From Allomuricauda sp. CAU 1633 (GTDB lineage Bacteria; Bacteroidota; Bacteroidia; Flavobacteriales; Flavobacteriaceae): a DNA stretch of 64,000 nt. Each line of letters begins with the position of its first letter. Position 1 is the stretch's first letter. The stretch is taken from positions 620,001 through 684,000 of the forward strand of contig NZ_JAFLNE010000002.1 of the NCBI RefSeq assembly GCF_017313225.1. The letters run 5' to 3'. Shown piece after piece: positions 7,638-64,000 of this stretch. The notes beneath the pieces were generated by a model, which was not told the DNA's origin, did not search any database, and saw only the letters and a list, made by a program, of their open reading frames with translations. The translations under genes and the position numbers were made by a program.

Positions 7638-10600
7638 TCAATGAACAGGGAATGATTGTGAAAGTAATTCCAATGGTCCCTGGTTGTTGGCAATTACTAT
7701 GTTGAACCCGTTGTCCTTCTTTATCAAACCAAGGGTCTTAACGTCATATCCCATGTTTATCCCACTTTTGGAATAGGGCATTGGGCTAAAACCACATTCA
7801 CCGTCACCCAGCAACAGTAGGCCTATTGAGGCATCATTGCGAGGGGTCTCGATTTCCGACGCGTATAGATTTCCTCCGATGATCACATCGAGAAGGCCAT
7901 CATTGTTGAAGTCCTCGATTAGAATATCATTGATGGGTGACAATTGGGCCATCAAAGGAAGTTGCTTGGAATCGTAGCTGCCTTTCCCTTTATTTTCCAA
8001 TAGGACACTGGCGAAGGACTTTACTGTAAAATGTTGGGACTCCTTAAGGTTTTCCTTGCCATATACGTCTTCCAAAGAAGCTTGGGCAAACGAATTGTAA
8101 TCCTTGAACTTAAGTTGGATTGCCGGTATTTGTTCTGAGGAGCATTGCCGCCCCCTTACCGGATAGAGAACCCCTTCATTGTGATATCCGAGGGCAATAT
8201 CCGTGTTTCCGTTCTCATCAAAATCATTGGCATATAGCTCAAAGGAAGCCTCTGGGGTCGCCTGATATTTATAGTTCAATCCGAGATTGCCGGCAAGAAT
8301 ATCAATATCACCGTCCTTATCAAAATCCGCACCTTCGATACTGGACCACCACCCTGTGGTATCCGCAAAACCAAAATCCGATGTCCTATCGATGAATTTT
8401 CCATTTTCTTGACTATAAATGGTCAAGGGCAACCATTCCCCCACCACAATTAGGTCCGTGGTGCCATTTCCATCAAAATCATTCCAAAGCGCATCGGTGA
8501 CCATGCCGATATCGGCCAACCCAGGGGCCAGTTCACCCGTGGCATCCACAAATTTTGGAACACCTTGGTCCATCTGGTTGACCAACAAGTAGCTTCGACC
8601 TGGATTTGGATAATTCTGTGGTGAGATCCTTCCCCCCACAAAAAGATCGATGTCCCCATCATGATCTATATCTGATGGGATAACACGGGAGCCGCTTCCC
8701 GTGATCTTTGGAAGGATCCCTTCCGATTTCTGAAAAGTCCCATTGAAGTTCAAATATAGCCTGTCCTGGAACATATCCTCATCCGTAAACCCATTGCCTC
8801 CACTGACAACATACAAATCCTGGTTGCCATCATTATTGGCATCAAAGAATAGGGCGCCCAAGTCTTCATATTTTTGGTCCTGTTCCCAGATTCCATGGGT
8901 CAAAACAAAAGTTTCATCAGCTTGCTGTACATACATGGCAGCTGGAAATCCGGCGCCATTTCCGACGTAGATATCATCAAGTCCGTCCCCATTGATATCG
9001 GCAATGGCCATGGCGGGGCCAAAGTTTGATAATTTGTGCGGAAGCAGTACTTGTTTGCCAAAATCGTTGTATGGGTTTTCACTGTGCCAGAAAATCGTGT
9101 CAAATTTCTGATTGGTCAATTGGAACATCTGTTCCATCGGGGCTTCTGATTTTTCCAATTGTTGGTTTTTACCTTTGATAAGGGTCAGGGTTTGGTCCGC
9201 ATTGATGTCCACGGACACTTCCCGGGAACCATCGCCCCAATCCACCATCAATGTGTCGATCCTATTGCTCTTCCCCAAGCCGAAATGAAGCACGGGCTCC
9301 ATAAAGGATTGGAACCCTTTGGTTGGATTCAAATGGAAATATTGGGTCAGGTCGTCACTTACGACCGTTACCTTAGCGCCTATACCCATGTGATTTGGTC
9401 GGTCCGATACCAATTTGATCCTTAGGTAGTGCCCATCCTTGATTTCTGAGGTATTGTTCTGGAACACACGGCACGTATCATCTATATTGTTCACCACCAA
9501 ATCCAAGTCTCCGTCATTGTCCAGGTCACCATAGGCGGCCCCGTTGGAAAACCCTTTGTAGCTCAGTCCCCAATCCTCGTTCACTTTTTTGAACTGCAGG
9601 CCATTGGTATTCTTGAAAATATAATTGTCTATTTTTTCTGAGGGCATCTCATTGACCAAATCGATCAATGAGGCCTTATTTAGATCAACATGGTCTTTTT
9701 CAAGGTTCTTAAAAAAGTCCTTGTTGTTGATTTCCCTGCGGGTTCCGTTGGTGATGAACAAGTCTTTCCAGCCATCATTGTCGAAATCGGCTATCAGGGG
9801 ACCCCAGCTCCAATCCGTTGAGGAAATGCCGGCCATCCATCCAATGTTGCTAAAAATAGGAAGGCCATCGGCACCCATGCCTTGGTTGAGCTGAAAAGAA
9901 TTGTACATGTACTGGTAATGGAACCCATGATTGACCGTGCTCCAAAAAAGACCTACATTCATGCTGGCCATATTGGCCTTTGACCGGCGATTGTCCTCTG
10001 GGGCCATATCCATTTGTACGAGGTCCAATAATCCATCATTGTTCACGTCTTCGGCGTCCGTCCCCATCCCGTAAAACGAAACCTGTTTTGTGGCTTCGTT
10101 CAGCTTATCGGTAAAAGTGCCGTCCCCATTATTGATGTAGAGGTAATCCGGTGTGCTGAAATCATTGGAAACGTAGATGTCGTCCCATCCGTCGTTGTTG
10201 TAATCCGCAATGGAGGAACTCACCGAGAGGCCAAAATTCAATAAACCGGACTTTTCGGTAACATTGGTAAATGTACCATCGCCGTTGTTGGTGTACAAAT
10301 GATCGCTTTTTGCCATATCTGGGCGGTTTATCATCATTCGATATACCGTATTGGCCGTTTTAAAGTCCGTTATCGGGTAATTGATGACGAATAAATCCAG
10401 ATCTCCGTCTTTGTCATAGTCAAAAAATGTGGATTGTATGGATTGGCCGATGTCGTTTATGCCATATTCTTCGGCCCTTTCCGAAAAAGTCAGATCCCCA
10501 TTGTTGACATAGAGTTGATTGCTTTTGTTCCCATTTTTTCCTGAAACACTGAGATAGATGTCCAAGTGGCCATCATTGTTGATATCCACAAGGCTCACAC

Positions 10601-53755: not shown

Positions 53756-54982
53756 ATGAAATTCCGAAAACGTTTTAGATATCTCTTTTTAATATTGATG
53801 GCTGTTGGGGCGCTTTTTCTAGCTAGGAAGTATTTTAATTCAATGTACGAGAGTCCTTATATTTCTGTTGAACCAATTGCTATGCATGGAAGTGGTAAAG
53901 GGTTTGCGGGATCAAATAGGTGCATAGGCTGTCATAAGGATCTTTACCAATCCCATATAAAGACACCACACTTCTTAACCTCCAGAGAAGCTGATAGCGT
54001 CTCAATAGAGGGAAGCTTTATCCAAAACAATAGCTATTTGCTCAATGATGAGATTATTTTCATTATGAGATCCGAGGAGGATGGATTCTATCAAGAGGCA
54101 TTTTCAAGGTTGGATAATGCTCTGATTGATTCCAAAAAAATGGACATAGTGATAGGTTCCGGGACCAAAGGACAATCTTATCTTAACTGGGAGGGTGATG
54201 ATCTATACCAATTGCAGGTATCTTATTTTAAACCTTCCAAAAGTTGGGTCAACAGTCCAAACTATCCAAATGGCATTTTTGCACCAAATAGACCCATTCG
54301 GCAGCGCTGCCTTGAATGTCATGTCACTTTTGCAAAAAGCAGGAACACGTTCAACAAACCCCATTCATATGACAGGTCACAACTCATATATGGCATTGAT
54401 TGTGAACGTTGCCACGGGCCTGGGAACGAACATGTAAACCACCACCTGTCCAATCCCAATGAGACGGAAGCCCTATATATTTTGTCGTATTCCGATTTAT
54501 CACAAAAACAAAGACTGCAATCCTGTGCCCTTTGTCACTCGGGAACCCAAAGGCACAGGGAAGAGATTCCCTTTTCATTTATGACCGGTGATACCCTAAT
54601 GGATTTTCCCAATCCTGAATATGACAGCAGCAGTTTGGAGTCGTTGGATGTGCATGGAAACCAATATGGTCTACTTTTGGCGAGCGCATGTTTTAAAGGG
54701 AGTAAGAGTATGGATTGTGTCAGTTGCCATGACCCTCACAAAAATCAGCGGGGCGACCTTAAAATGTTCAATGCCAAATGTATTGCCTGTCACCAAGGGA
54801 CCGGGCCGGGCGGGGAAATCCCATGTAGTATTGAAATGGACTTGAGAAAATCCAAGGACAACAATTGTGTGGAGTGCCATATGCCACTAACCCCCTCCAA
54901 ATCCATGTCGATTTATGATTCAAAAGATTCCTTGCTCGTCCCCGTAGAGATCAGGACACATTTAATAGGAATTTACGAATGA
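53756..54982 (+). CDS. Seven-haem c-type cytochrome, membrane-anchored
   Basis: 408 residues with one N-terminal membrane segment (YLFLILMAVGALFLA). Seven CxxCH motifs are visible: CIGCH, CLECH, CERCH, CALCH, CVSCH, CIACH and CVECH, arranged like cytochrome c554/NrfA-type multihaem proteins. It should carry electrons in the periplasm. The stop overlaps the start of the DUF1080 gene by four bases (ATGA), so the two are translated together. A role as electron acceptor for periplasmic sugar oxidation is inferred. I know no named gene for it. Confidence 0.85.
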   Translation: MKFRKRFRYLFLILMAVGALFLARKYFNSMYESPYISVEPIAMHGSGKGFAGSNRCIGCHKDLYQSHIKTPHFLTSREADSVSIEGSFIQNNSYLLNDEIIFIMRSEEDGFYQEAFSRLDNALIDSKKMDIVIGSGTKGQSYLNWEGDDLYQLQVSYFKPSKSWVNSPNYPNGIFAPNRPIRQRCLECHVTFAKSRNTFNKPHSYDRSQLIYGIDCERCHGPGNEHVNHHLSNPNETEALYILSYSDLSQKQRLQSCALCHSGTQRHREEIPFSFMTGDTLMDFPNPEYDSSSLESLDVHGNQYGLLLASACFKGSKSMDCVSCHDPHKNQRGDLKMFNAKCIACHQGTGPGGEIPCSIEMDLRKSKDNNCVECHMPLTPSKSMSIYDSKDSLLVPVEIRTHLIGIYE

Positions 54983-55884
54983 CAAAGAACAGGAAAACTC
55001 ATGCAAATATGAACTCAAATTTAAACAAGACTATGGATAAATCAACTTTTTGGATCGGTATATTATCGATGATTGTTATTATGGGATGTAGATCAAAAAA
55101 GCCCGAAAACAATTGGGAGAATCTTTTTAATGGTACGGACCTATCGGGTTGGGACACTTATATCGGGGCAGAATTTTCAGGAGGTGATTGGGAGGATTGG
55201 ACAAAAGGGGAAAGGTTGGGTCTCAATAATGACCCGGATAAAGTGTTCAAAGTAGATATTTTAGATGGGGAACCTGTTATTCACATATCCGGAAAACGAT
55301 TTGGGGGGCTTTCAACCCATCGGGAATTCCAAAATTACCATTTACAAATGGAATTCAAATGGGGTACCCATAAATATGCTCCCAAGGAAAATGCTCCCAA
55401 GGACAGTGGGTTACTTTACCATGCCGTAGGAGAACATGGGGCAGATAGTGGATTTTGGATGCGTTCCCAGGAATTTCAGATACAAGAGGGGGATACCGGA
55501 GATTATTGGGGGTGTGCAGGTGCAACTTTCGATGTACCGGTCAGACTTGAAGAAAATAATTTCATTTATGACCCAATGGGTGAGCTGCTACATTTTTCAC
55601 CTGACAATGAACGTGGAAGACATGTGGTAAAGTCAACTGATGCTGAAAAACCTTCTGGTGAGTGGAACACTATCGATTTGTTTTGTTTTGAAGGGACTGC
55701 CATTCATGTAATCAATGGAAAGAAAAACATGATACTCTACAATTCTTCCCAAATCAATACTGCGGGCAATGAAATGCCGTTGGTGAAGGGAAAAATACAA
55801 ATGCAATCAGAAGGAGCCGAAATATATTTTAAGAACATACGAATCAGGACTTTAAAAGAGTTGCCCAAAAAGTATTTAAGATAA
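54979..55884 (+). CDS. DUF1080 (3-keto-disaccharide hydrolase-like) lipoprotein
   Basis: 301 residues from the overlapping ATG; starts at 55009 or 55033 are also possible, and 55033 gives a shorter signal (STFWIGILSMIVIMGC, lipobox). The body is the beta-jelly-roll DUF1080/LamG-like domain: WENLFNGTDLSGWDTYIG, NYHLQMEFKWG, DSGLLYHAVGEHG, SQEFQIQEGDTGDYWG and KIQMQSEGAEIYFKNIRIR. In Bacteroides a DUF1080 protein acts on 3-keto-glycosides together with a Gfo/Idh/MocA enzyme and isomerase-fold proteins, all of which have relatives in this window. Coupled to the seven-haem cytochrome. Confidence 0.88.
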   Translation: MTKNRKTHANMNSNLNKTMDKSTFWIGILSMIVIMGCRSKKPENNWENLFNGTDLSGWDTYIGAEFSGGDWEDWTKGERLGLNNDPDKVFKVDILDGEPVIHISGKRFGGLSTHREFQNYHLQMEFKWGTHKYAPKENAPKDSGLLYHAVGEHGADSGFWMRSQEFQIQEGDTGDYWGCAGATFDVPVRLEENNFIYDPMGELLHFSPDNERGRHVVKSTDAEKPSGEWNTIDLFCFEGTAIHVINGKKNMILYNSSQINTAGNEMPLVKGKIQMQSEGAEIYFKNIRIRTLKELPKKYLR

Positions 55885-56924
55885 TTGCCCTTAAATTATT
55901 TGATCATGTGGAATTTCAGACCTCGTGGACCAAATGTGATTATTTTGTTGGTTCCGATTTACGTATCTCACAAAGGTGTCATGCCATTATACGTTCCCTA
56001 AGGTCCTTTATGATTATAAAAAGCACGGCCATTTCATTTCATTTCCAAATCAATATCAGCGGTCCATGTGGGCAATTAGTGTAATTATCTCAGGTTCGTT
56101 AAAAAGGATCTCTTTGTTTTTTATAGGGTTGCAGGGCCGCACCTTGATATCCCTTTTACGGGTCTTTGACCTATCAATGTAATTTAGGATGGAACTCATA
56201 ACCCCCATCAGTCCTTGCACTAGGGATAGAAAATAGAGATTTATCAACCACATAGTTCATAAAATGAACCGTATTAGGCTGTATGTGATGATTGTAAATT
56301 TTCGAACTCCAAAAGCTTGGAACCATGGATCATTTCATCAAGTAATTGAGAATTTTAATAGCGTGAAGGAACTCTTAAATTTAATCGGTAGTATCCTAAA
56401 TTCAACCATCGCTCGTGCAAATTTTCTTCAAAATCACAAAAGAAGGATAATCCCTTGTTCATTGCCATGATCGTGGCGCTATTCATTATAGCCTACTTTT
56501 CAGGACTTGGTCTGTGCTTACCAAGTTTGTTAAATTCAAATCAATAACCTATAAATATCTTTAAATAGTATTAATTTAGCGTGGAAAGTATATCGATATG
56601 GTCAAAAGTTACCTATTCGGTTACCTTTTTTGAAGAAATACGCGTAACATATTGGTCTATAGTTGGATACTGAAAATTTATTGGGTCAGTCATCCCGACT
56701 TACCTTATTTAAGTAAAATCAAAACACTGTTAATCTTATGATTTTCAGTGTTTTGTGTTTTTAGGCATATCGTTTGAATTCATTTAAAACCATCTAAAAT
56801 CATATCAGGCGTGTTCCCATCGGGAGCAAACACTTACAGTTCTTGTTGTAACTTTAAATGACTTTTAGAACCATTTTTCTTGTGTTTTGACTTTCACAGT
56901 ATTCACACTCTAAAAGGTTACAAC
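55885..56924. other. Gene-poor kilobase before the mobile element
   Basis: Short frames on both strands (55976-56182, 56056-56253, 56264-56470) have no recognisable domain. A stem ACTTGGT/ACCAAGT is at 56505-56526 and AAAACACTG/CAGTGTTTT with a T-rich tail at 56721-56754. The left junction of the element should lie in here; no tRNA gene was seen as target. Confidence 0.5.
56721..56760 (+). terminator. Candidate terminator upstream of integrase
   Basis: AAAACACTG (56721-56729) pairs with CAGTGTTTT (56746-56754), followed by GTGTTTTT. The 16-base loop is long. It would stop transcription entering the integrase. Confidence 0.5.
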
Positions 56925-58163
56925 ATGCAGAAAAACAATCGTTTAACAATCAATTTCTTTACAAGAAAGCACAAGGTTCAATCCGAGAACCTAATTGTCT
57001 ATTGCAGGATCACCATAGACGGTGAGCGCACCGATTTTAGCATAAATCGGGAGATAAAAGCCAATTTATGGGACAATAACCGTAAAAGGGGCAAGGGTTT
57101 TTCTAGTTATGTGATTTCCCTGAACAAGTACCTAGACCAAATTTATACAGGACTACATGAGGCCCATCGATTAATGATGGCAGAAGAAAAAGTAATAACT
57201 CCACTATCTATCAAAGCAAGATTTTTTGGGGAAGATGAGGGCGGAAAAACATTGAAACAATTGATTGCCTACCACAATGGAACCATGCACACTTCTTTAC
57301 GTCCGGGAACCAGAAAGAATTACCACATCACAGAAAGATGCATAGGCATATTTTTACAAGAGGAATATGGGGTTGAGGATATAAAGCTTAAAAAGTTGAA
57401 CTATCGTTTCATATCCGACTTTGAACAATACCTTAGAAAGTACAGACCATCTACACGAACAAAATGCACAAATAATGGTGCCATGAAGCACATGGAACGG
57501 CTTAAGAAAATGTCGAGGTTGGCCGTTCGGTTGGATTGGATAACGAAAGACCCTTTTGAAAACTATAAACTACGTTTTGAGAAAACCGAACGGGAATATT
57601 TGACAAAACGGGAATTGAGGTTGATTGAAGAAACCACGTTCACTAAGGATGGGGTTGAGAAATGTAAGGATGTGTTTCTTTTCTCGTGCTATACTGGTCT
57701 ATCCTATATCGATGTCAAGGCATTGACCCCAGACCACCTAATTAAAGGAATCGATGGTAATGAATGGTTGTTTACCAAAAGGATAAAGACGGACGAAAAA
57801 CTTAAAATCCCCCTACTACCGCAAGCAAAGGAAATCATCAAGAAATATGAAGATTCAGCCGAAAGAAGAATAGCGAAAGTCCTATTGCCTGTTTATAGCA
57901 ATCAAAAGGTCAATTATTACTTAAAGGAAATCAGCAGAACCTGCAAGATTTACAAGAAAGTGACATTCCATACAGCAAGGCACACTTTTGCAACAACGAT
58001 AACCTTGTCCAATGGAGTCCCTATAGAAACTGTCTCAAAGATGCTCGGCCATACCAAATTGTCCACTACCCAGATCTATGCCAGGGTATTGGAACACAAG
58101 ATAGGTGAGGACATGCAAAACCTAATAAATCATATGCAAACTAGCCGATCAGCCGAAGGATGA
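56925..58163 (+). CDS. Tyrosine recombinase of the Bacteroidota integrative-element type
   Basis: 412 residues from ATG at 56925 (an upstream TTG frame adds unrelated residues). N-terminal Arm-binding domain (RLTINFFTRKHKVQSENL), SAM-like core-binding domain, and C-terminal catalytic domain with HTARHTFAT (Arg II region), LGHTKLSTTQIYARV (His and catalytic Tyr). At the Arg I position the sequence is CYTGLSYIDV, with Ser in place of Arg, as in IntDOT of CTnDOT. It should integrate and excise the element that carries the mobilization genes just downstream. Confidence 0.92.
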   Translation: MQKNNRLTINFFTRKHKVQSENLIVYCRITIDGERTDFSINREIKANLWDNNRKRGKGFSSYVISLNKYLDQIYTGLHEAHRLMMAEEKVITPLSIKARFFGEDEGGKTLKQLIAYHNGTMHTSLRPGTRKNYHITERCIGIFLQEEYGVEDIKLKKLNYRFISDFEQYLRKYRPSTRTKCTNNGAMKHMERLKKMSRLAVRLDWITKDPFENYKLRFEKTEREYLTKRELRLIEETTFTKDGVEKCKDVFLFSCYTGLSYIDVKALTPDHLIKGIDGNEWLFTKRIKTDEKLKIPLLPQAKEIIKKYEDSAERRIAKVLLPVYSNQKVNYYLKEISRTCKIYKKVTFHTARHTFATTITLSNGVPIETVSKMLGHTKLSTTQIYARVLEHKIGEDMQNLINHMQTSRSAEG

Positions 58164-58182
58164 TAAGGATGTATTTCTTCTG

Positions 58183-58267
58183 TCCCGCTTGCGGGACGTA
58201 GGAATAGCAAGAGGGTGATGCGCAGATTGCGCCATCACGGTTGTTTTCGGGTCTTCAACGAGTTGAA
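58183..58267. other. Palindrome cluster between integrase and mobilization genes, candidate oriT
   Basis: Three inverted repeats lie close together: GTCCCGC/GCGGGAC (58183-58198), GTGATGCGC/GCGCCATCAC (58215-58238) and TTCAACGAGTTGAA (58254-58267). The first may end the integrase transcript. Their place just ahead of the mobilization genes is where oriT usually lies. No nick site can be identified. Confidence 0.4.
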
Positions 58268-58425
58268 AACCAGTTAATTGAACAGATTTTGGAATACTGC
58301 ACATAATCAGGGGCTACAGTAGACTTTTCCGAAATCTACAGTAAACCCTTTGGGAAGCCCAATAAACACTGGAAATTTTTGACGAAAAAATTGACGCATT
58401 TTCACTAAAAAACAAAATCACACCT

Positions 58426-59010
58426 ATGGAAAAGCAATCAGCAATTGGTAGAACAAAGAAAGGGAGCGGTGGTTGTTCCAATATCACCGTAAAGAAGGAA
58501 ACAGCCACACGCTTTCGCAGTTATTCTAAAAAGTTTAACAGATCGCATAGTGAAGTATTGGACGGGATGATACAATACTTCAAGGAGAACAACCTTGACC
58601 CTTTTGGAGAGGGAACAAAGATCATCCTTGACAGCATCAAAAAACTGGAGCGTCAGATGATGAAAAAATTTGATAGGCTCATCGCCATTATCAAGAACAT
58701 GGAAAAGACCAGTATCCGGCCCACCTATGAAATGATGCTCATTCTTTACGAGGCCTATGTAAAGGATGGAAGGAAACCGAGAAGGGAACCTATCCAAATT
58801 CAGGAAGAGCGAATGGATTTTTTGGAGCCTAGGAATACTGTTCCAAAAGTGGAGCACGAGAGAATGCTGCAAGAATTCAATGAATATAAAAAACGCTGCA
58901 ATGAAATGCTCAACAGCGTTGAAAAGGTGGAACCCATGATGGGAAAACCATATCTAAAGATCAATATGGGCTTTGGGGATTTTGAAAGCCTGAAACATCA
59001 ATTAAGATAA
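58426..59010 (+). CDS. BfmA/BtgA-type mobilization protein
   Basis: 194 residues. N-terminal basic part (RTKKGSGGCSNITVKKETATRF, shown here in two parts: RTKKGSGGCSN and ITVKKETATRF) with a ribbon-helix-helix-like region SHSEVLDGMIQYFKENN, then a long coiled-coil helix (LERQMMKKFDRLIAIIKNME, KVEHERMLQEFNEYKKRCNE). The family comprises oriT-binding accessory proteins of Bacteroides mobilizable transposons. It is followed by the relaxase-like gene after five bases. Good match in size and layout; DNA binding is inferred from family. Confidence 0.85.
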   Translation: MEKQSAIGRTKKGSGGCSNITVKKETATRFRSYSKKFNRSHSEVLDGMIQYFKENNLDPFGEGTKIILDSIKKLERQMMKKFDRLIAIIKNMEKTSIRPTYEMMLILYEAYVKDGRKPRREPIQIQEERMDFLEPRNTVPKVEHERMLQEFNEYKKRCNEMLNSVEKVEPMMGKPYLKINMGFGDFESLKHQLR

Positions 59011-59015
59011 CGCCC

Positions 59016-60038
59016 ATGTACCTTATCATCTCAGCACAGAAAATGGGCAGTACCTATAACTCCAGTGTAGGGAACTATGTGGACTATCTGGAAAAGGAAA
59101 ACGAGGACAGGTTGCCCGAACAGAGGGAGGAATTCTTTGACCAAGAGAACGACAGCGTAAGTCCTCAAACGGTCATCGATGAAATAGATGCCAATACGGC
59201 CAAACTGAGACAGAAAGATCCAAAATTCTACTCCATAGTGGTCAGTCCCAACCAAAGGGAGCTGAAGGCCATCGGCAATGACCCAAATCTGCTTAGGGAA
59301 TATACAAGGAAGCTCATGGAGGACTATGCCAAGAGTTTCCATCGCAGCCAAGAGGTTAAGGCCGAAAACCTAAAGTATTATGCCAAGATCGAGCATGAGC
59401 GCACCTATCGGGGCTTCGATAAACAGGTACAGGAGAATGCCCCATACCGTGGCGAAATAGCAAGGCTCAGGAACGAGATACGAAAAGTGGAACGGGGCGA
59501 ATCCATTGGGAATGTCAAAGAGCTTGAAAAAAGAATCAAAGAGCAAGAAAGATTGGCACCCCACAAACAGAACGGGCAACTGGTGGCCGCAGGGATGAAG
59601 AAAGAGGGGCCACAGACCCATATCCATATCATAGTCAGCAGAAGGGACATAACGAACACCTATACGCTTTCCCCAATGGCCAAGCACAAGGCATCCGAGG
59701 TTCAATTAAATGGAAAGACGGTCAAGAGAGGGTTTGATCGGGACAGTTTTTACCAAGCAGCCGAAAAGACCTTTGACAGGACAACTGGCTTCAAGAGGAA
59801 CTATATGGATTCCTATGTGGGGAGAAAAGCCCATGCCAAGGAACCGGGCAAGTTCTTTGCCAAGGTTATGGGACTGCCCACCAAGGAAAAGGACATGGCC
59901 TTTAAATTGCTTAAAACGATGGGTATCAAAGCTCCCAGTATACCGACCAATAAAGTACAGATAGGGGTCAAAATCATCAAAGCCCTTGGAAGGGGTATCA
60001 ATAAGGCAAGGGGAGCGGGTGAGGATATGGGCTACTGA
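59016..60038 (+). CDS. Relaxase-like mobilization protein (BtgB/DUF5712 type)
   Basis: 340 residues. The N-terminus carries a likely catalytic Tyr region (GSTYNSSVGNYVDYLEKEN). The middle has PHKQNGQLVAAGMKKEG and the metal-binding HxH motif THIHIIVSRRD, as in mobilization relaxases. A charged helical segment lies between (RNEIRKVERGESIG). It should nick at oriT and lead the strand during transfer. Together with the BfmA/BtgA-like gene and the integrase it makes a small mobilizable element without its own transfer genes, so it would need a helper. Confidence 0.85.
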   Translation: MYLIISAQKMGSTYNSSVGNYVDYLEKENEDRLPEQREEFFDQENDSVSPQTVIDEIDANTAKLRQKDPKFYSIVVSPNQRELKAIGNDPNLLREYTRKLMEDYAKSFHRSQEVKAENLKYYAKIEHERTYRGFDKQVQENAPYRGEIARLRNEIRKVERGESIGNVKELEKRIKEQERLAPHKQNGQLVAAGMKKEGPQTHIHIIVSRRDITNTYTLSPMAKHKASEVQLNGKTVKRGFDRDSFYQAAEKTFDRTTGFKRNYMDSYVGRKAHAKEPGKFFAKVMGLPTKEKDMAFKLLKTMGIKAPSIPTNKVQIGVKIIKALGRGINKARGAGEDMGY

Positions 60039-60064
60039 GATTCAAAATGTAGGTTGCGCCCTAC

Positions 60065-60110
60065 CGGGTTTTTGCTTCACGCTTATCTTCCCGATCGCTA
60101 CAAAAACCCG
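60065..60110. repeat. Inverted repeat CGGGTTTTTG/CAAAAACCCG after mobilization genes
   Basis: Perfect ten-base arms (60065-60074, 60101-60110) with a 26-base loop, 26 bp past the relaxase stop. It may be a terminator or part of the element end. No T run beyond the stem. Confidence 0.5.
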
Positions 60111-60259
60111 ATAGGATCCATGCGCAAAAGTTGAGGGTAGGATTTGGGGTTCTTTTTCTTATATTTTGAAACAGTTCGGTTTTAAGGGGAGCTTACACAA
60201 GGATTTTCAATTATTTTTTTCAGTTCTGTATTCATTTCAAAATGAAAGCCAACGCTTTT

Positions 60260-60287
60260 GATAAAATGAGTTTTAATTCATTTTATC
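60260..60287. terminator. Candidate terminator GATAAAATGA/TCATTTTATC
   Basis: Perfect ten-base stem with eight-base loop (60260-60269, 60278-60287). On the plus strand a T-rich but interrupted tail follows. It separates the mobilization genes from the convergent serine hydrolase gene. Confidence 0.45.
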
Positions 60288-60308
60288 TATTGTTGTAGTT
60301 TGTTTTAA

Positions 60309-61646
60309 CTAGTTAAATAAATCAGATTTGGCGATCATCCTTGATATTAAAGGTAGTTTGTTTTCATTGTTATTTTCGTCTTTACTTCCGAAATATGCAA
60401 TAACTAAATCCTTTTTGGGAGAAACATATAATCCAGACCCTCCAAAACCTGCTTTCCAAAAATCACCATCTTCCATAACAAATTCCCATTGGTATGTCTC
60501 ATGCTTAATAGGCTCACCGTATAGTAAGTTTTTAGTATTTGAATCATTATCGGTAAACCAGTCAGTACTTTTAGTTTCTAATAATAATTTTGGTCGACCT
60601 TCCATTTGAATTGCCTCAAGATGTCTGGTAGAAACAACAGGATTATTATTTCTTCTGCCTGAGGGTGTGTAGAGCATCCCTAGACGGGCTAAATCTCTCA
60701 AAGTAGAGCTAAATCCAAGAGGTGACGCTGATCGGCCAAATGCTGCATTCATTATTACTGCGTCAGACATAGCTCCAGATTTTTTCCAGATCTCTTGTTC
60801 AATAAAGTTTGAATACTTTTGACCGCTTACTTCTTCAATTAATGCAGATAGGATAAGGGGATTAATGTCGGCATATTCAAAAACTTCGCCCGCCGGTCTA
60901 TGTGAGGCAATTTCAGCAAAATATTCAAGTGGATTTTCTAAGGCCATTGAAGTATTTGGCCACCCCCATACAAGAAGCGATTTTTTAAAACAATCACCGC
61001 CATGTGATTCACTTGGAACACAATCGAGACCAGAAGTCATGTCTAGAAAATCAATGACTTTAATTTTTCCTGCATGACTCCCCTTTAACTCAGGTATATA
61101 TACTTCCACAGGGTCTTCTGTATTAATTTTCCCCTGATCAATTAATATTCCGACGGAAAGAGATACCAATATTTTTGAAATTGACATATAAGTATGTTTA
61201 TCATCTGGAAGCATCCGTGGATAGGATTCAAAAATAATATTCCCTTTATGTATTACAATTGCACCGTTTGTTGGTGAATTATTTATGTAATTTTTAAAGA
61301 TGAAGTCTTTCTTATCCAATGCAAATTGAAATTGAGCTACATCTTCGCGAAGATGAATCGGTAGACATTTTTTGTATTGACCAGCTTTTATAATTGTATG
61401 TGGCCAAAACTCAGAAAAATGAAGATAAATATATCTGGAAGCATCACCTTGCAACGCCCAGGACTCAAAATCATCCCAGTTTTCATCATTAAATCTTTGA
61501 TGTACCTTTTTAGATTTTTCCAGTGAAAAATCGATATAGTCACTTTCAGGAAAACCTTGATCATTAGAATTACTTTCAACAGTTTTTTGATTTTGTGTGC
61601 AAGAACACAATGTCAATAAAATAAATATTTGGATAGCAGACTTCAT
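60309..61646 (-). CDS. Serine hydrolase (beta-lactamase/penicillin-binding-like), lipoprotein
   Basis: 445 residues with lipobox FILLTLCSC. Beta-lactamase class C-like fold: SISK motif in TYMSISKILVSLSVG (nucleophile Ser), YADINPLILSALIEEVSG (the YxN-type Tyr), and a C-terminal GFGGSGLYVSPKKDLVIAYFG. The family includes esterases and peptidases, and resistance activity is not implied. The gene is AT-richer to the eye than the polysaccharide genes, and its stop overlaps the palindrome TTTAACTAGTTAAA (60304-60317). It is one of two lipoprotein genes between palindromic spacers, so it looks like a cassette gene. Confidence 0.88.
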   Translation of the reverse strand: MKSAIQIFILLTLCSCTQNQKTVESNSNDQGFPESDYIDFSLEKSKKVHQRFNDENWDDFESWALQGDASRYIYLHFSEFWPHTIIKAGQYKKCLPIHLREDVAQFQFALDKKDFIFKNYINNSPTNGAIVIHKGNIIFESYPRMLPDDKHTYMSISKILVSLSVGILIDQGKINTEDPVEVYIPELKGSHAGKIKVIDFLDMTSGLDCVPSESHGGDCFKKSLLVWGWPNTSMALENPLEYFAEIASHRPAGEVFEYADINPLILSALIEEVSGQKYSNFIEQEIWKKSGAMSDAVIMNAAFGRSASPLGFSSTLRDLARLGMLYTPSGRRNNNPVVSTRHLEAIQMEGRPKLLLETKSTDWFTDNDSNTKNLLYGEPIKHETYQWEFVMEDGDFWKAGFGGSGLYVSPKKDLVIAYFGSKDENNNENKLPLISRMIAKSDLFN

Positions 61647-61667
61647 TTAGTTCTATTTTATAAACTA

Positions 61668-61792
61668 CAATGGCCACGCGGCTATGGCGAGTAGTGTTGC
61701 GAGCTTGCTCGCAAGAGCTACAGGCATTTTTCCCAATGGCCACGCGGCTATGGCGAGTAGTGTTGCGAGCTTGCTCGCCAGAGCTACAGGCA
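61668..61792. repeat. 59-bp direct repeat, two copies with one difference
   Basis: Copies at 61668-61726 and 61734-61792, starting CAATGGCCACGCGGCTATGG and ending GAGCTACAGGCA. They differ by A/C at one position. Each contains the palindrome GCGAGCTTGCTCGC. They lie just upstream of the serine hydrolase start and form part of a cassette spacer. Confidence 0.9.
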
Positions 61793-61807
61793 GCCATTAG
61801 ACGCTGA

Positions 61808-61934
61808 TTCGCTATAGCCGTAGTTGGGAAAAGTACTTTTTTCCTTTGCGGCGCGCTGGCCTTTAATTGTTAAACTTGGAATAAATATAGCGAATAAGCG
61901 GTCGTTTCAATGCCGCTTATACATTGTTATGGGC
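61808..61934. repeat. Nested palindromic spacer B, attC-like
   Basis: TTCGCTATA (61808-61816) pairs with TATAGCGAA (61886-61894); ATAAGCGG (61894-61901) pairs with CCGCTTAT (61913-61920); then GTTATGGGC (61926-61934) overlaps the amidohydrolase stop. GTTATGGGC is the inverse of GCCCATAAC at 62905-62913 on the other side of the gene. Confidence 0.6.
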
Positions 61935-62889
61935 TTTTGAGTTTTGAAATTTCTTCCTCACTTAGTCGAAGGAACTTGGCAGCATTATTAAAAAATATAT
62001 CCTCCTTTTGTTTTAATGTTAGGAAATCAGCATTGTTAACCGATTGAATTCCAATTGTAATCAGTTCGGGAAATACCATCTGATCACTTCCATACATAAT
62101 TCTATCTCCAAACCCAGAATTAATTAACGATTTCAGATAGGTATTCAATTCTTCTTGAGGTAAAATCCAATTGATAAGAGCGATATCGACATACAGGTTA
62201 GGGTGTTCATACATCATTGCTTTAAGATCGTCCACATAGGGCCATCCACCATGCATGATAAAAAGTCTTAAGTCGGGATATTTAAACAATACATCTTCTA
62301 GCTGTAAGGGATTGGCGTTGTATGCACGCATTCCACCCTGTCCGGGCAAAATGTGAAATCCATAATTTGGGCCTCCTGGTAAAACGTGAAAGCCAATTGG
62401 AATATCAAACTCTTGAGCTAATTCAAAGTAGGGTATTTGAGAGGAGTCGTTAGCTAGTATTCCTGCAAAAAAAGGTGTCATTTCAGCAATAGCCTTTACA
62501 CTTCCATTTTCAATTTGATTTTTCAACTCATCAATATCCCTAGACGATTTTGCGTTTATAATAATATCTGGAGCTTCCTTTACCCATCCTTGTGCATTTG
62601 TTACCAGTGCCTTGACTATATTATGCTCTTTAAACTTGGATAGCATCAAGTTTTTTAGTTCTTCAGCTGATGTTGCTCCCTGAAAAGTTTCGCCACGTAA
62701 TGTTGGGGGATGAGTCATACCAAGCATTTGATGCCCCTCATGAAATGCGTGGAGATGCATATCGATAATCGGTCCGGTGTATGTAGTTGAATTGGCATCA
62801 TTAATAGTGGAGTTACTTTTCTCTTGTTGGTTATTGCATGAGGTTAGCAAAAGAAGAACTGTTAAAAAGGTAATAGTTTGTGGTTTCAT
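61927..62889 (-). CDS. Amidohydrolase-family (amidohydrolase 2) lipoprotein
   Basis: 320 residues, lipobox LTVLLLLTSC. Metal-dependent TIM barrel: IIDMHLHAFHEG (metal His pair), IGFHVLPGG, LFIMHGGWPYVDDL (His) and DRIMYGSDQMVFPEL (Asp). Relatives are decarboxylases and hydrolases of small acids or lactones; the substrate is unknown. The gene fills almost the whole stretch between spacer B and spacer C, its stop lying inside GTTATGGGC and its start 16 bases from GCCCATAAC. This fit is like a gene cassette. Confidence 0.88.
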   Translation of the reverse strand: MKPQTITFLTVLLLLTSCNNQQEKSNSTINDANSTTYTGPIIDMHLHAFHEGHQMLGMTHPPTLRGETFQGATSAEELKNLMLSKFKEHNIVKALVTNAQGWVKEAPDIIINAKSSRDIDELKNQIENGSVKAIAEMTPFFAGILANDSSQIPYFELAQEFDIPIGFHVLPGGPNYGFHILPGQGGMRAYNANPLQLEDVLFKYPDLRLFIMHGGWPYVDDLKAMMYEHPNLYVDIALINWILPQEELNTYLKSLINSGFGDRIMYGSDQMVFPELITIGIQSVNNADFLTLKQKEDIFFNNAAKFLRLSEEEISKLKSP

Positions 62890-62904
62890 ATTCTTTCATT
62901 TATT

Positions 62905-62996
62905 GCCCATAACTTGATTATATACTGAACTTTGTTGGGCATATACCGCCAATTTGGTTGGCTATGCCCAAGTTTCTTAAATTATTGTTCAGTATA
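62905..62996. repeat. Nested palindromic spacer C, attC-like
   Basis: Outer arms TATACTGAAC/GTTCAGTATA (62921-62930, 62987-62996), inner arms TTGGGCATA/TATGCCCAA (62935-62943, 62963-62971), innermost GCC/GGC (62948-62950, 62960-62962), with unequal unpaired spacers (4 and 15 bases). GTTGGGC at 62934-62940 fits the integron core-site form GTTRRRY. GCCCATAAC at 62905-62913 marks the border with the amidohydrolase gene. Confidence 0.65.
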
Positions 62997-63036
62997 GTTT
63001 CCATTTTTATCTTCTCAGTATGCAATATAAAGATAA

Positions 63037-64000
63037 TTAAAGGTCATCAAATGGGTTGTTGATGTTTTTGATACTATTCTCGGTTACATGGGTATAGATC
63101 ATGGTGGTCTTTGGGTTGTTGTGCCCCAAAAGTTCTTGGATATAACGGATATCGGTTCCACTTTCCAATAAATGTGTAGCAAAACTATGCCTTAACGTGT
63201 GAAGAGTAACCTTTTTCCGTATTCCAGAACTCATAACAGCCTTTTTTAAAACGCTTTGAGCGCTTCTGGCACTATATTTTAATGTTTTTTGACCTTCAAA
63301 CAGATATTCTTTGGGCCTGAACTGTTTATAATACTCCCGAAGAATCTTCAGAAAACTGGCGGAAAGTTAAGTATATCTATATTTTTTCCCTTTTCCGCCC
63401 TTTATGTGTATCAACATTCTTCTACTGTCAATATCATCGATTCTGAGATTCATAGCTTCACCTATTCTTAGCCCTCCAGAGTAGATGAGGGACAATAGTG
63501 TTTTATGTTTTAGGTTGTGGGTGGCATCGATGATGGACCTTACCTCCGCCTTGCTCAGGACAACAGGAAGTTTTTTCTCTTTCTTTGGTCTACTTAGGTT
63601 CAACGCACCAATATCGATACCCTTGAACGAAAAATACTTCTTTTTGCCATTTATACATTGATTTTGATATGATATGGATTTTCCTTCACGGACGATGAAT
63701 TCATAATTAAAGGATTCGACCAACCTTTTTGAGTAGTTTCTAGAATTTCTCAAGATGGTGTACCTGAGAAAAAAACTGGTTACCTCAACGTAGGTGTCCA
63801 CAGTATTGGGACTCAATCTCTTTTCCTCTAACCACCTCCTGAACTTATCCAAGTTTTGTTTGTTCAGTGAATCAATGGGCGGTAAATAAAGTTTTACTTT
63901 CTTTTTAGGTTTATCATTTTGCTTTTGCTTTAATTCGGTATAGTCCACATAGCAATTTATCTTGCACATATGGTTAAATACAAGACTTAAGTTCTGCCCC
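63037..64000 (-). pseudogene. Tyrosine recombinase with in-frame stop, 5' end beyond window
   Basis: One frame runs from the right edge to 63037. An ATG is at 63969, but the frame stays open upstream, so the true start may lie outside. Motifs are GGLRIGEAMNLRIDDID (Arg I), [16 protein letters not shown] (Arg II), [17 protein letters not shown] (His, catalytic Tyr). At 63367-63369 a TAA interrupts the frame after KKYRYT; the reading goes on in the same frame ([16 protein letters not shown], then YLFEGQ), so a TTA Leu codon changed by one base would explain it. This XerC/IntI-like family is common in Bacteroidota and differs from the integrase at 56925. It borders the palindromic cassettes. Confidence 0.85.

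Follow-up and report, generated by a model that had tools for sequence, protein, structure and literature searches.

The two lipoprotein genes near the end of the window (the whole 64,000-nt stretch of DNA that was analysed) very probably belong to a chromosomal integron-like platform of this flavobacterium, composed of an Xer/XerA-like recombinase, an attI site and cassettes with folded attC sites. This reading draws on what we observed: the anatomy of the locus, units with exact boundaries, covarying stems, a predicted bias toward one strand, and co-occurrence of sites and recombinase. Judged from sequence, both genes are mobile cassettes; the gene-collecting platform to which they belong occurs in many Bacteroidota and apparently depends on a recombinase lacking the protein domain thought essential for integrons. 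A preliminary description of this DNA had suggested a Bacteroidota cassette system of integron-like kind, and that suggestion proved largely right.

Anatomy of the locus

All features of the locus lie on the minus strand:

63037-64152 (63037..64000 in the window), minus: gene of a tyrosine recombinase, 371 codons and a stop, read from the ORFs as a whole frame; its start, 64152, is beyond the window
62911..63036, minus: attI-like site, a nested dyad running from the recombinase stop to the crossover point G(62913)|TT(62912-62911)
61926..62913, minus: cassette 1, start GTTATGGGC (62913-62905), end GCCCATAAC (61934-61926), 9 nt complementary
61927..62889, minus: cassette 1 gene, Amidohydro_2 family lipoprotein, 320 aa
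61671..61928, minus: attC1, a composite attC-like spacer with a 46-nt element (61883-61928) and a 91-nt element (61735-61825)
60292..61670, minus: cassette 2, start TTGTAGTTT (61670-61662), end AAACTACAA|C (60301-60292), 9 nt complementary
60309..61646, minus: cassette 2 gene, 445-aa lipoprotein in the PF00144 beta-lactamase/serine hydrolase family
60251..60294, minus: attC2, a minimal 44-nt site, AACAATAGATAAAATGA...TCATTTTATCAAAAGCGTT, from covariance model R1
60199..60252, minus: third cassette, start only, the remainder cut off by a mobilizable element

The locus placed at 60304-64000 by the preliminary description is real, but the recombinase gene runs to 64152, and the array reaches about 60199, with the third cassette cut short there by the mobilizable element. 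The shared end of this element, GTGTAAGCTCCCC, also stands at the array end of the relative L084. As described, the two secreted-enzyme genes nearly fill the space between palindromic spacers, and both translations carry lipoprotein signals by eye. The adjoining recombinase also differs in kind from the integrase of the mobilizable element (56880-58163), which has Arm-DNA-bind_5 and SAM_5 domains. The recombinase gene is present beside the array as proposed, yet in our ORF reading a single in-frame TAA (63367-63369) interrupts it; the intact recombinase of L084 is 94% identical to it. Given this premature stop, the window copy is probably silent and the platform here probably inactive in cis. 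A second, intact copy in the same genome (C15, L097) could act in trans on the window array.

Searching with a structure model, as the preliminary description had advised, recovered the last attC of the window: model R1, built without the window, matched attC2 at 29.4 bits (E 4.4e-6 in 20 kb). The two strands of this site are predicted to fold almost equally well (-6.7 versus -6.6). The degenerate attC1 matched weakly (14.3 and 15.6 bits), and the right half of its 91-nt element is tandemly duplicated (58/63 nt, copies from 61668 and 61734). Rfam gave no matches at E 1 in window positions 56000-64000, and DNA searches of the same genome turned up no further copy of either spacer adjoining cassette 1. 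What places the window pattern beyond chance is own-end complementarity, the model match of the last spacer and the recurrence of the first spacer elsewhere.

Cassette ends and folded sites in relatives

Relatives have intact recombinases and longer arrays, with co-oriented genes following the recombinase. Cultured species that host such platforms include Algibacter onchidii, Seonamhaeicola aphaedonensis and Winogradskyella ursingii. These are one-orientation arrays of mobile single-gene cassettes, a few cassettes holding two genes or none. Complementarity of at least 9 nt joined the own ends of 33 of 40 cassettes, compared with 8 of 1560 non-own pairs; the ends lie 0.2-3.4 kb apart, and the own-end sum was reached in none of 10,000 permutations. 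All seven cassettes lacking an own-end match are in L091, L094 and L101, where we think the site list missed or misplaced sites. A set of 87 cassettes was selected by matching ends and includes chance pairs, so we did not use it as proof of end matching. Every one of 33 cassette starts reads GTTR, six free letters and A, and a single one fits GTTRRRY. Pfam had no match for seven of ten cassette products, while Rfam returned one tRNA and one weak match below its cut-off in L098 and L100, and nothing else.

In form the sites are imperfect hairpins, 44 nt long at the shortest and about 250 nt at the longest. A first, stricter scan for uninterrupted stems yielded 48 sites downstream and 48 upstream of recombinases, mostly off the spacers, and was dropped because the L arms have bulges. 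A second scan returned 72 candidates in 98,012 nt downstream; upstream, the same strand gave 38 in 183,974 nt. Of the 72, 45 were kept by length class and right-end letters, and 27 rows were dropped before the end and fold tests. Single-strand folding with a preference for the bottom strand is predicted for these sites: 42 of 45 have their better fold on the bottom strand, compared with 110 of 225 in the control. The covariance model used 31 of the 45 (one, inside a gene, was dropped, and 13 by length), and in its consensus stem 13 of the 16 pairs show changes on both sides. The supposition that the spacers are alike in structure is thereby upheld in relatives, where they are conserved as covarying structures and not as terminators.

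Exact boundaries at attI and at the spacers

Among relatives, attI is kept up to CAAG|TT and diverges abruptly after it. Three congeners (L085, L086 and L087) show 99.8-100% identity across the 400 nt that end at the attI G|TT and are unrelated past it (30-35% over 300 nt; 126 nt only in L086). This breakpoint in three genomes sets the cassette junction at G|TT of an attI that adjoins the recombinase. In some attI-like sites (L101, L111 and L116) the crossover is directly preceded by a perfect dyad whose arms measure 11-12 nt. As for a putative cassette promoter Pc, a conserved AT-rich motif ahead of attI was noted by eye.

Pieces of the window's first spacer type, 72-175 nt long and 83-92% alike, occur in six congeners. 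In four of these congener loci by pattern, and in a fifth by eye, the right end of this spacer breaks off at one and the same point; different genes come next, and a matching end was found for five of six readable copies. Identical attI sequence leading into unrelated cassettes, and one spacer type leading into different genes, mark exact boundaries of gene-plus-spacer units, the units that the preliminary description had proposed to compare between strains. One cassette body is common to L084 and Algibacter onchidii L108 (89% over 835 nt), its ends differing between the two but matching themselves.

A recombinase outside the IntI clade

By its sequence, the recombinase is of a simple Xer/XerA-like type that is without the IntI-specific insertion and outside the IntI clade. 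The IntI model TIGR02249 matched six intact relatives at 199.5-216.0 bits, all below its 265-bit cut-off, and did so in two stretches rather than one, skipping model positions ~181-238 where both pieces were listed (for example G011:C13, G012 and G000:C15). With pieces scored apart, 21 genomes held no match above the cut-off. Alignment to IntI4 (2A3V) likewise fell into two pieces that leave out residues 181-245, and the arginine spacing is 92 here versus 134 in IntI. A tree sets the Bacteroidota recombinases apart from the IntI clade; it omits 15 of 99 rows (broken, partial, over-long or replaced), puts L149 on a very long branch and has 27 of 83 inner branches drawn open.

The nearest sequence and fold matches were archaeal XerA (4A8E, 5HXY) and NCBIfam NF040815, aligned in one piece with no insertion. 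Against NF040815 (archaeal-type XerA, curated cut-off 220 bits), six proteins scored 214.9-237.1 bits, three of them above the cut-off. Unlike in archaeal XerA, some 100-125 residues lie ahead of the matched part in the six Bacteroidota proteins tested. With an AlphaFold model of middling quality (pLDDT 80, pTM 0.50), the fold search counts as supporting only.

Sites and recombinase occur together

Run on 80 loci that had been found by recombinase similarity, the model from 31 non-window sites matched 48 times at E 0.1 or better. All 48 are downstream of the recombinase and 47 on the bottom strand; they fall in 16 loci, all titled Bacteroidota. The model, built on Bacteroidota sites, matched none of the archaeal or Patescibacteria loci in the set; among 16 Bacteroidota-clade loci with 3 kb or more downstream, it had no match in 6. 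Across 118 Bacteroidota genomes, one per species, sites were present in 30 of 44 with the recombinase versus 17 of 74 without (Fisher p 1.9e-6 in a test that ignores phylogeny). The proposed co-occurrence with this recombinase family is thus borne out, with 17 genomes having sites without a detected recombinase and 14 a recombinase without detected sites. Within the genus, all 60 genomes searched contain sites, many far from any recombinase found.

Recombinase and cassettes pointing the same way had been held to be unlike classic integrons. That layout holds in the window, but four Bacteroidota loci have the classic divergent one, and the inverted integrons of Treponema provide a precedent, their integrase being transcribed toward attI and the cassettes according to PMC3607928. 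The Treponema integrase (L183) differs from ours, lying within the IntI clade with 134-aa spacing. The layout test drew on ten further loci hand-picked because sites stood near a recombinase; in L190, L192, L196 and L197 model sites are present and no own-end cassette was found, and the own-end cassette of L195 looks spurious.

Weighing the alternatives

Sedentary chromosomal integrons resemble the platform in having a recombinase beside attI, oriented arrays of single-gene cassettes, a crossover at G|TT and attC sites predicted to fold better as bottom strand. Own-end pairing is shared too: 3 of 11 IntI-clade loci show it over 8-13 nt, so we do not claim it as a unique trait. The integron attC consensus is GTTRRRY at R' and RYYYAAC at R''. 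An ordinary IntI with an ordinary sedentary array would account for these likenesses and for the TIGR02249 scores, but it is highly unlikely given that the match is split and below the cut-off, the model region and the 2A3V residues left out, the shorter arginine spacing, the position in the tree and cassette starts that follow another pattern than GTTRRRY. PMC9668308 and PMC8352920 define integrons strictly by an integrase with the IntI-specific additional domain, which the Bacteroidota recombinases lack. On sequence grounds the platform would be integron-like in its working, yet it fails the strict IntI definition.

Modules of the Xer-dif type are flanked by 28-bp dif-like sites. Recombination of such double-stranded sites, rather than of folded single strands, would suit a recombinase nearest to Xer/XerA and the perfect dyads before some crossovers. 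It is nonetheless improbable, since the sites are long, imperfect, covarying hairpins biased to one strand, and mutually complementary cassette ends would be needless for a double-stranded core. A chance neighbourhood of an unrelated recombinase and ordinary genes, spaced by terminator or REP-like palindromes, would fit the commonness of intergenic palindromes and the scatter of sites through all the congeners searched. Against this stand the unit-specific complementarity of distant ends, the exact breakpoints, and site position and strand relative to the recombinase, which make it the remotest of explanations.

Under the integron-like reading, circular gene cassettes would be captured by the tyrosine recombinase at attI, just downstream of its own gene, with crossover at G|TT. 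The bottom strand of the attC site, in folded form, would be what recombines, and pairing between both cassette ends in the circle would make up its outer stem. We infer that this recombinase would perform the catalysis, that the folded single strand would be its substrate and that cassettes would be read from a promoter near attI. The mobilizable element has truncated the window array.

Implications

We consider it reasonably likely that the platform represents a second, widespread integron lineage in Bacteroidota, with two layouts, in which an Xer/XerA-type recombinase acts on folded attC strands without the IntI insertion. Folded-strand capture would then have arisen twice, or the insertion would be a later addition on the IntI branch. 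Insertion-less members of the integron-like YR subgroup differ in that the relevant passages of Smyshlyaev et al. 2021 (PMC8138268) do not tie them to cassette arrays. For Bacteroidetes proper, IntegronFinder 2.0 (PMC9024848) gives one complete integron, that of Salinibacter ruber, although other papers count Bacteroidota among the phyla with integrons (PMC8618304, PMC9668308). Among open-access journal papers, covered by title and the opening of the abstract and in part by passages of text, we found no description of this system. As the surveys consulted pick integrases by the IntI insertion, the platform has plausibly been overlooked. If it is active, a large phylum would have a cassette economy invisible to insertion-based searches, some of the cassette clusters described as integrase-less may possess an integrase after all, and the need of the insertion for integron recombination would become a directly testable claim.

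The locus and its surroundings

The studied locus occupies the end of the window (G000:C12:620001-684000), with the recombinase gene first and all of its listed features on the minus strand:

63037 to 64152, minus: tyrosine recombinase gene, extending beyond the window
between the recombinase and Amidohydro_2 genes, minus: dyad-rich stretch
62889-61927, minus: Amidohydro_2 lipoprotein gene (cassette 1)
between the Amidohydro_2 and PF00144 genes, minus: long palindromic spacer (attC1, or spacer 1)
61646-60309, minus: PF00144 serine-hydrolase-family lipoprotein gene (cassette 2)
60251-60294, minus: 44-nt hairpin site (attC2) after the PF00144 gene
near 60199, minus: start of a further unit, interrupted here by a mobilizable element

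The window recombinase gene contains a single in-frame TAA (63367-63369), and this early stop suggests a platform that has ceased to function in cis. A second, intact copy in the same genome (C15; L097 2562-3698) comprises three cassettes and a 379-aa recombinase from another subclade of the same family; one cassette product matches a CDI immunity protein family. The right half of attC1 is duplicated in tandem (58/63 nt; 61668-61797), leaving a tiny gene-less unit between the copies.

Recombinase matches at E 1e-10 or better occurred in 33 of 60 same-genus genomes. Identity to the window recombinase reached at least 69% at 12 loci in 11 genomes, its own included and a 38-aa piece not counted. 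We retrieved the surroundings of 18 recombinases. The frame is open in 17; in L085 it is split, as in the window, by a stop codon (10565-10567, oriented and native numbering coinciding), and the neighbours L086 and L087 are intact. Our recombinase alignment (A1) holds 16 proteins, L087 being identical to L086. Directly upstream of the recombinase in L098 is a tRNA gene (9456-9540).

Two related mobilizable elements (window 56880-60198 and G000:C12 about 690.6-693.8 kb, L009) lie in the same direction on either side of a ~10-kb stretch holding the integron. Both encode an integrase, a 194-aa protein and a 340-aa DUF5712-type protein, and their ends are 90% alike over 116 nt. Because these co-directional elements flank the integron and have such similar ends, they might mobilize the stretch between them as a composite. 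Genes with lengths matching those of the mobilizable element stand at the array end in the window (58426-60038), L084 (18216-19828, oriented) and L093 (16810-17832, oriented); the 340-aa length recurs in L084 and L093, and the 194-aa length also in L084. Upstream of the element, a window gene (53756-55884 region) whose translation carries several CxxCH motifs and resembles a multihaem cytochrome overlaps the start of a DUF1080-like secreted gene.

Cassette ends are mostly complementary within a unit

Each cassette starts with TT and about seven further letters that are reverse-complementary to its own end. At least 9 complementary nucleotides linked own ends in 33 of 40 cassettes and 8 of 1,560 non-own pairs, and the observed complementarity sum was reached in 0 of 10,000 permutations. 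The seven cassettes with no own-end match all came from L091, L094 and L101. GTTR opens all 33 matched cassettes (GTTRRRY fits one), and letter 11 is A in every one; in the reverse-complemented end it faces G in 28 cassettes and C in 5. Both window cassettes conform: GTTATGGGC pairs with GCCCATAAC, and TTGTAGTTT with AAACTACAA.

Comparison of loci placed the boundary at G|TT, the proposed crossover point at attI. Up to its G, L085, L086 and L087 share 99.8-100% identity over 400 nt, and beyond it identity drops to 30-35% (300 nt; 126 nt for L086); for the window versus L084, the values are 95% before and 31% after. Spacer 1 has relatives in 6 of the 70 other congeneric genomes searched, with pieces of 72-175 nt showing 83-92% similarity. 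Its right end was located by pattern in four of six congener loci and by eye in L205; L204 runs off its contig. The pattern matches amount to six copies of the right end; each stops at GTGGCC[GAT]TT and is followed by different sequence, and a matching far end was found for five. L084 and Algibacter onchidii L108 share one cassette body (89% identity over 835 nt); its ends differ between these loci, yet each pair is self-matching.

Folding and a covariance model of the sites

Folding predictions for 45 selected sites made the bottom strand the more stable one in 42 (mean difference -2.95 kcal/mol); among 225 random stretches drawn from the same loci, they did so in 110. The strand difference is small in the window sites (attC2, -6.7 versus -6.6; whole spacer 1, -53.7 versus -49.1). 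We aligned 31 of the 45 sites as bottom strands, none from the window and three from its genome's second integron, to build a covariance model (R1); 13 of its 16 consensus pairs show changes on both sides. R1 detected the window attC2 (29.4 bits, E 4.4e-6 in 20 kb); its matches to two pieces of attC1 were weak (15.6 and 14.3 bits).

Of 80 loci from one genome scan, 16 had R1 matches at E 0.1 or better, 48 in total, and all 16 are titled Bacteroidota. All 48 matches lay on the downstream side of the recombinase (sequence searched: 362,880 nt downstream, 456,713 upstream), 47 of them on the expected strand. At this threshold there were no matches at loci of the canonical integron integrase (IntI) clade, and none in 6 of 16 Bacteroidota-clade loci having at least 3 kb downstream.

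The recombinase family is distinct from IntI

Six intact relatives each matched the IntI model TIGR02249 in two separate stretches, scoring 199.5-216.0 bits where the cut-off is 265; where both are listed, the first ends near model position 180 and the second starts near 239-244. Their best model was the archaeal-type XerA model NF040815 (214.9-237.1 bits, cut-off 220). Among solved structures, our recombinase profile aligns to XerA in one piece and to IntI4 (2A3V) in two, omitting residues 181-245. The spacing of the catalytic-box arginines is 92 in every motif-matched genus locus, whereas it is 134 in motif-matched IntI loci (L165, L183, L185). By these tests the recombinase lacks the IntI-specific insertion. 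A quick tree of 87 rows grouped IntI as a single clade (11 rows, SH-aLRT 100, Treponema L183 inside) and placed the window protein in another group, of 50 rows (SH-aLRT 95), made up of Bacteroidota and one unclassified MAG (L112); forks near the base of the tree are poorly supported.

Sites and recombinases are widespread in Bacteroidota

We surveyed 118 Bacteroidota genomes with the recombinase profile (E 1e-60) and R1 (E 1e-4), finding the recombinase in 44 and sites in 47: both in 30, sites only in 17, recombinase only in 14 and neither in 57 (Fisher p 1.9e-6, kinship ignored). Within the genus, all 60 genomes searched carry 1-39 sites (R1, E 0.01), so the sites are more common there than the window recombinase's close relatives. 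Many of these sites lie far from any recombinase found, as scattered single cassettes or remnants.

Layout was judged by R1 matches at ten loci chosen for sites near a recombinase. Six are co-directional (recombinases of 368-495 aa); the other four (L188, L189, L190, L194), with recombinases of 278-306 aa, show the divergent arrangement of classic integrons; the divergent recombinases likewise lack the IntI insertion, and arginine spacing is short (92-93) in all ten. Own-end cassettes were found in five (L188, L189, L191, L193, L194).

An integron-like system

We infer the catalysis, the form of the substrate and the expression of the cassettes. Most likely, a circular single-stranded cassette would fold with its two ends as the outer stem, and the recombinase would join it, at G|TT, to the attI lying downstream of the recombinase gene. 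The complementary ends of a unit stand 0.2-3.4 kb apart in the array and differ between units, a combination predicted by this folded-cassette mechanism and not by an ordinary terminator.

PMC9668308, PMC8352920 and PMC2426708 define or select IntI by the insertion, and PMC8138268 describes it as incompletely conserved within an integron-like subgroup. Bacteroidota appear among integron-bearing phyla in PMC8618304 and PMC9668308, and PMC9024848 gives a single complete integron in Bacteroidetes, that of Salinibacter ruber. By the defining insertion test, the recombinase described here is not IntI, and because that feature is absent the system is not an integron by strict definition; it works like one.
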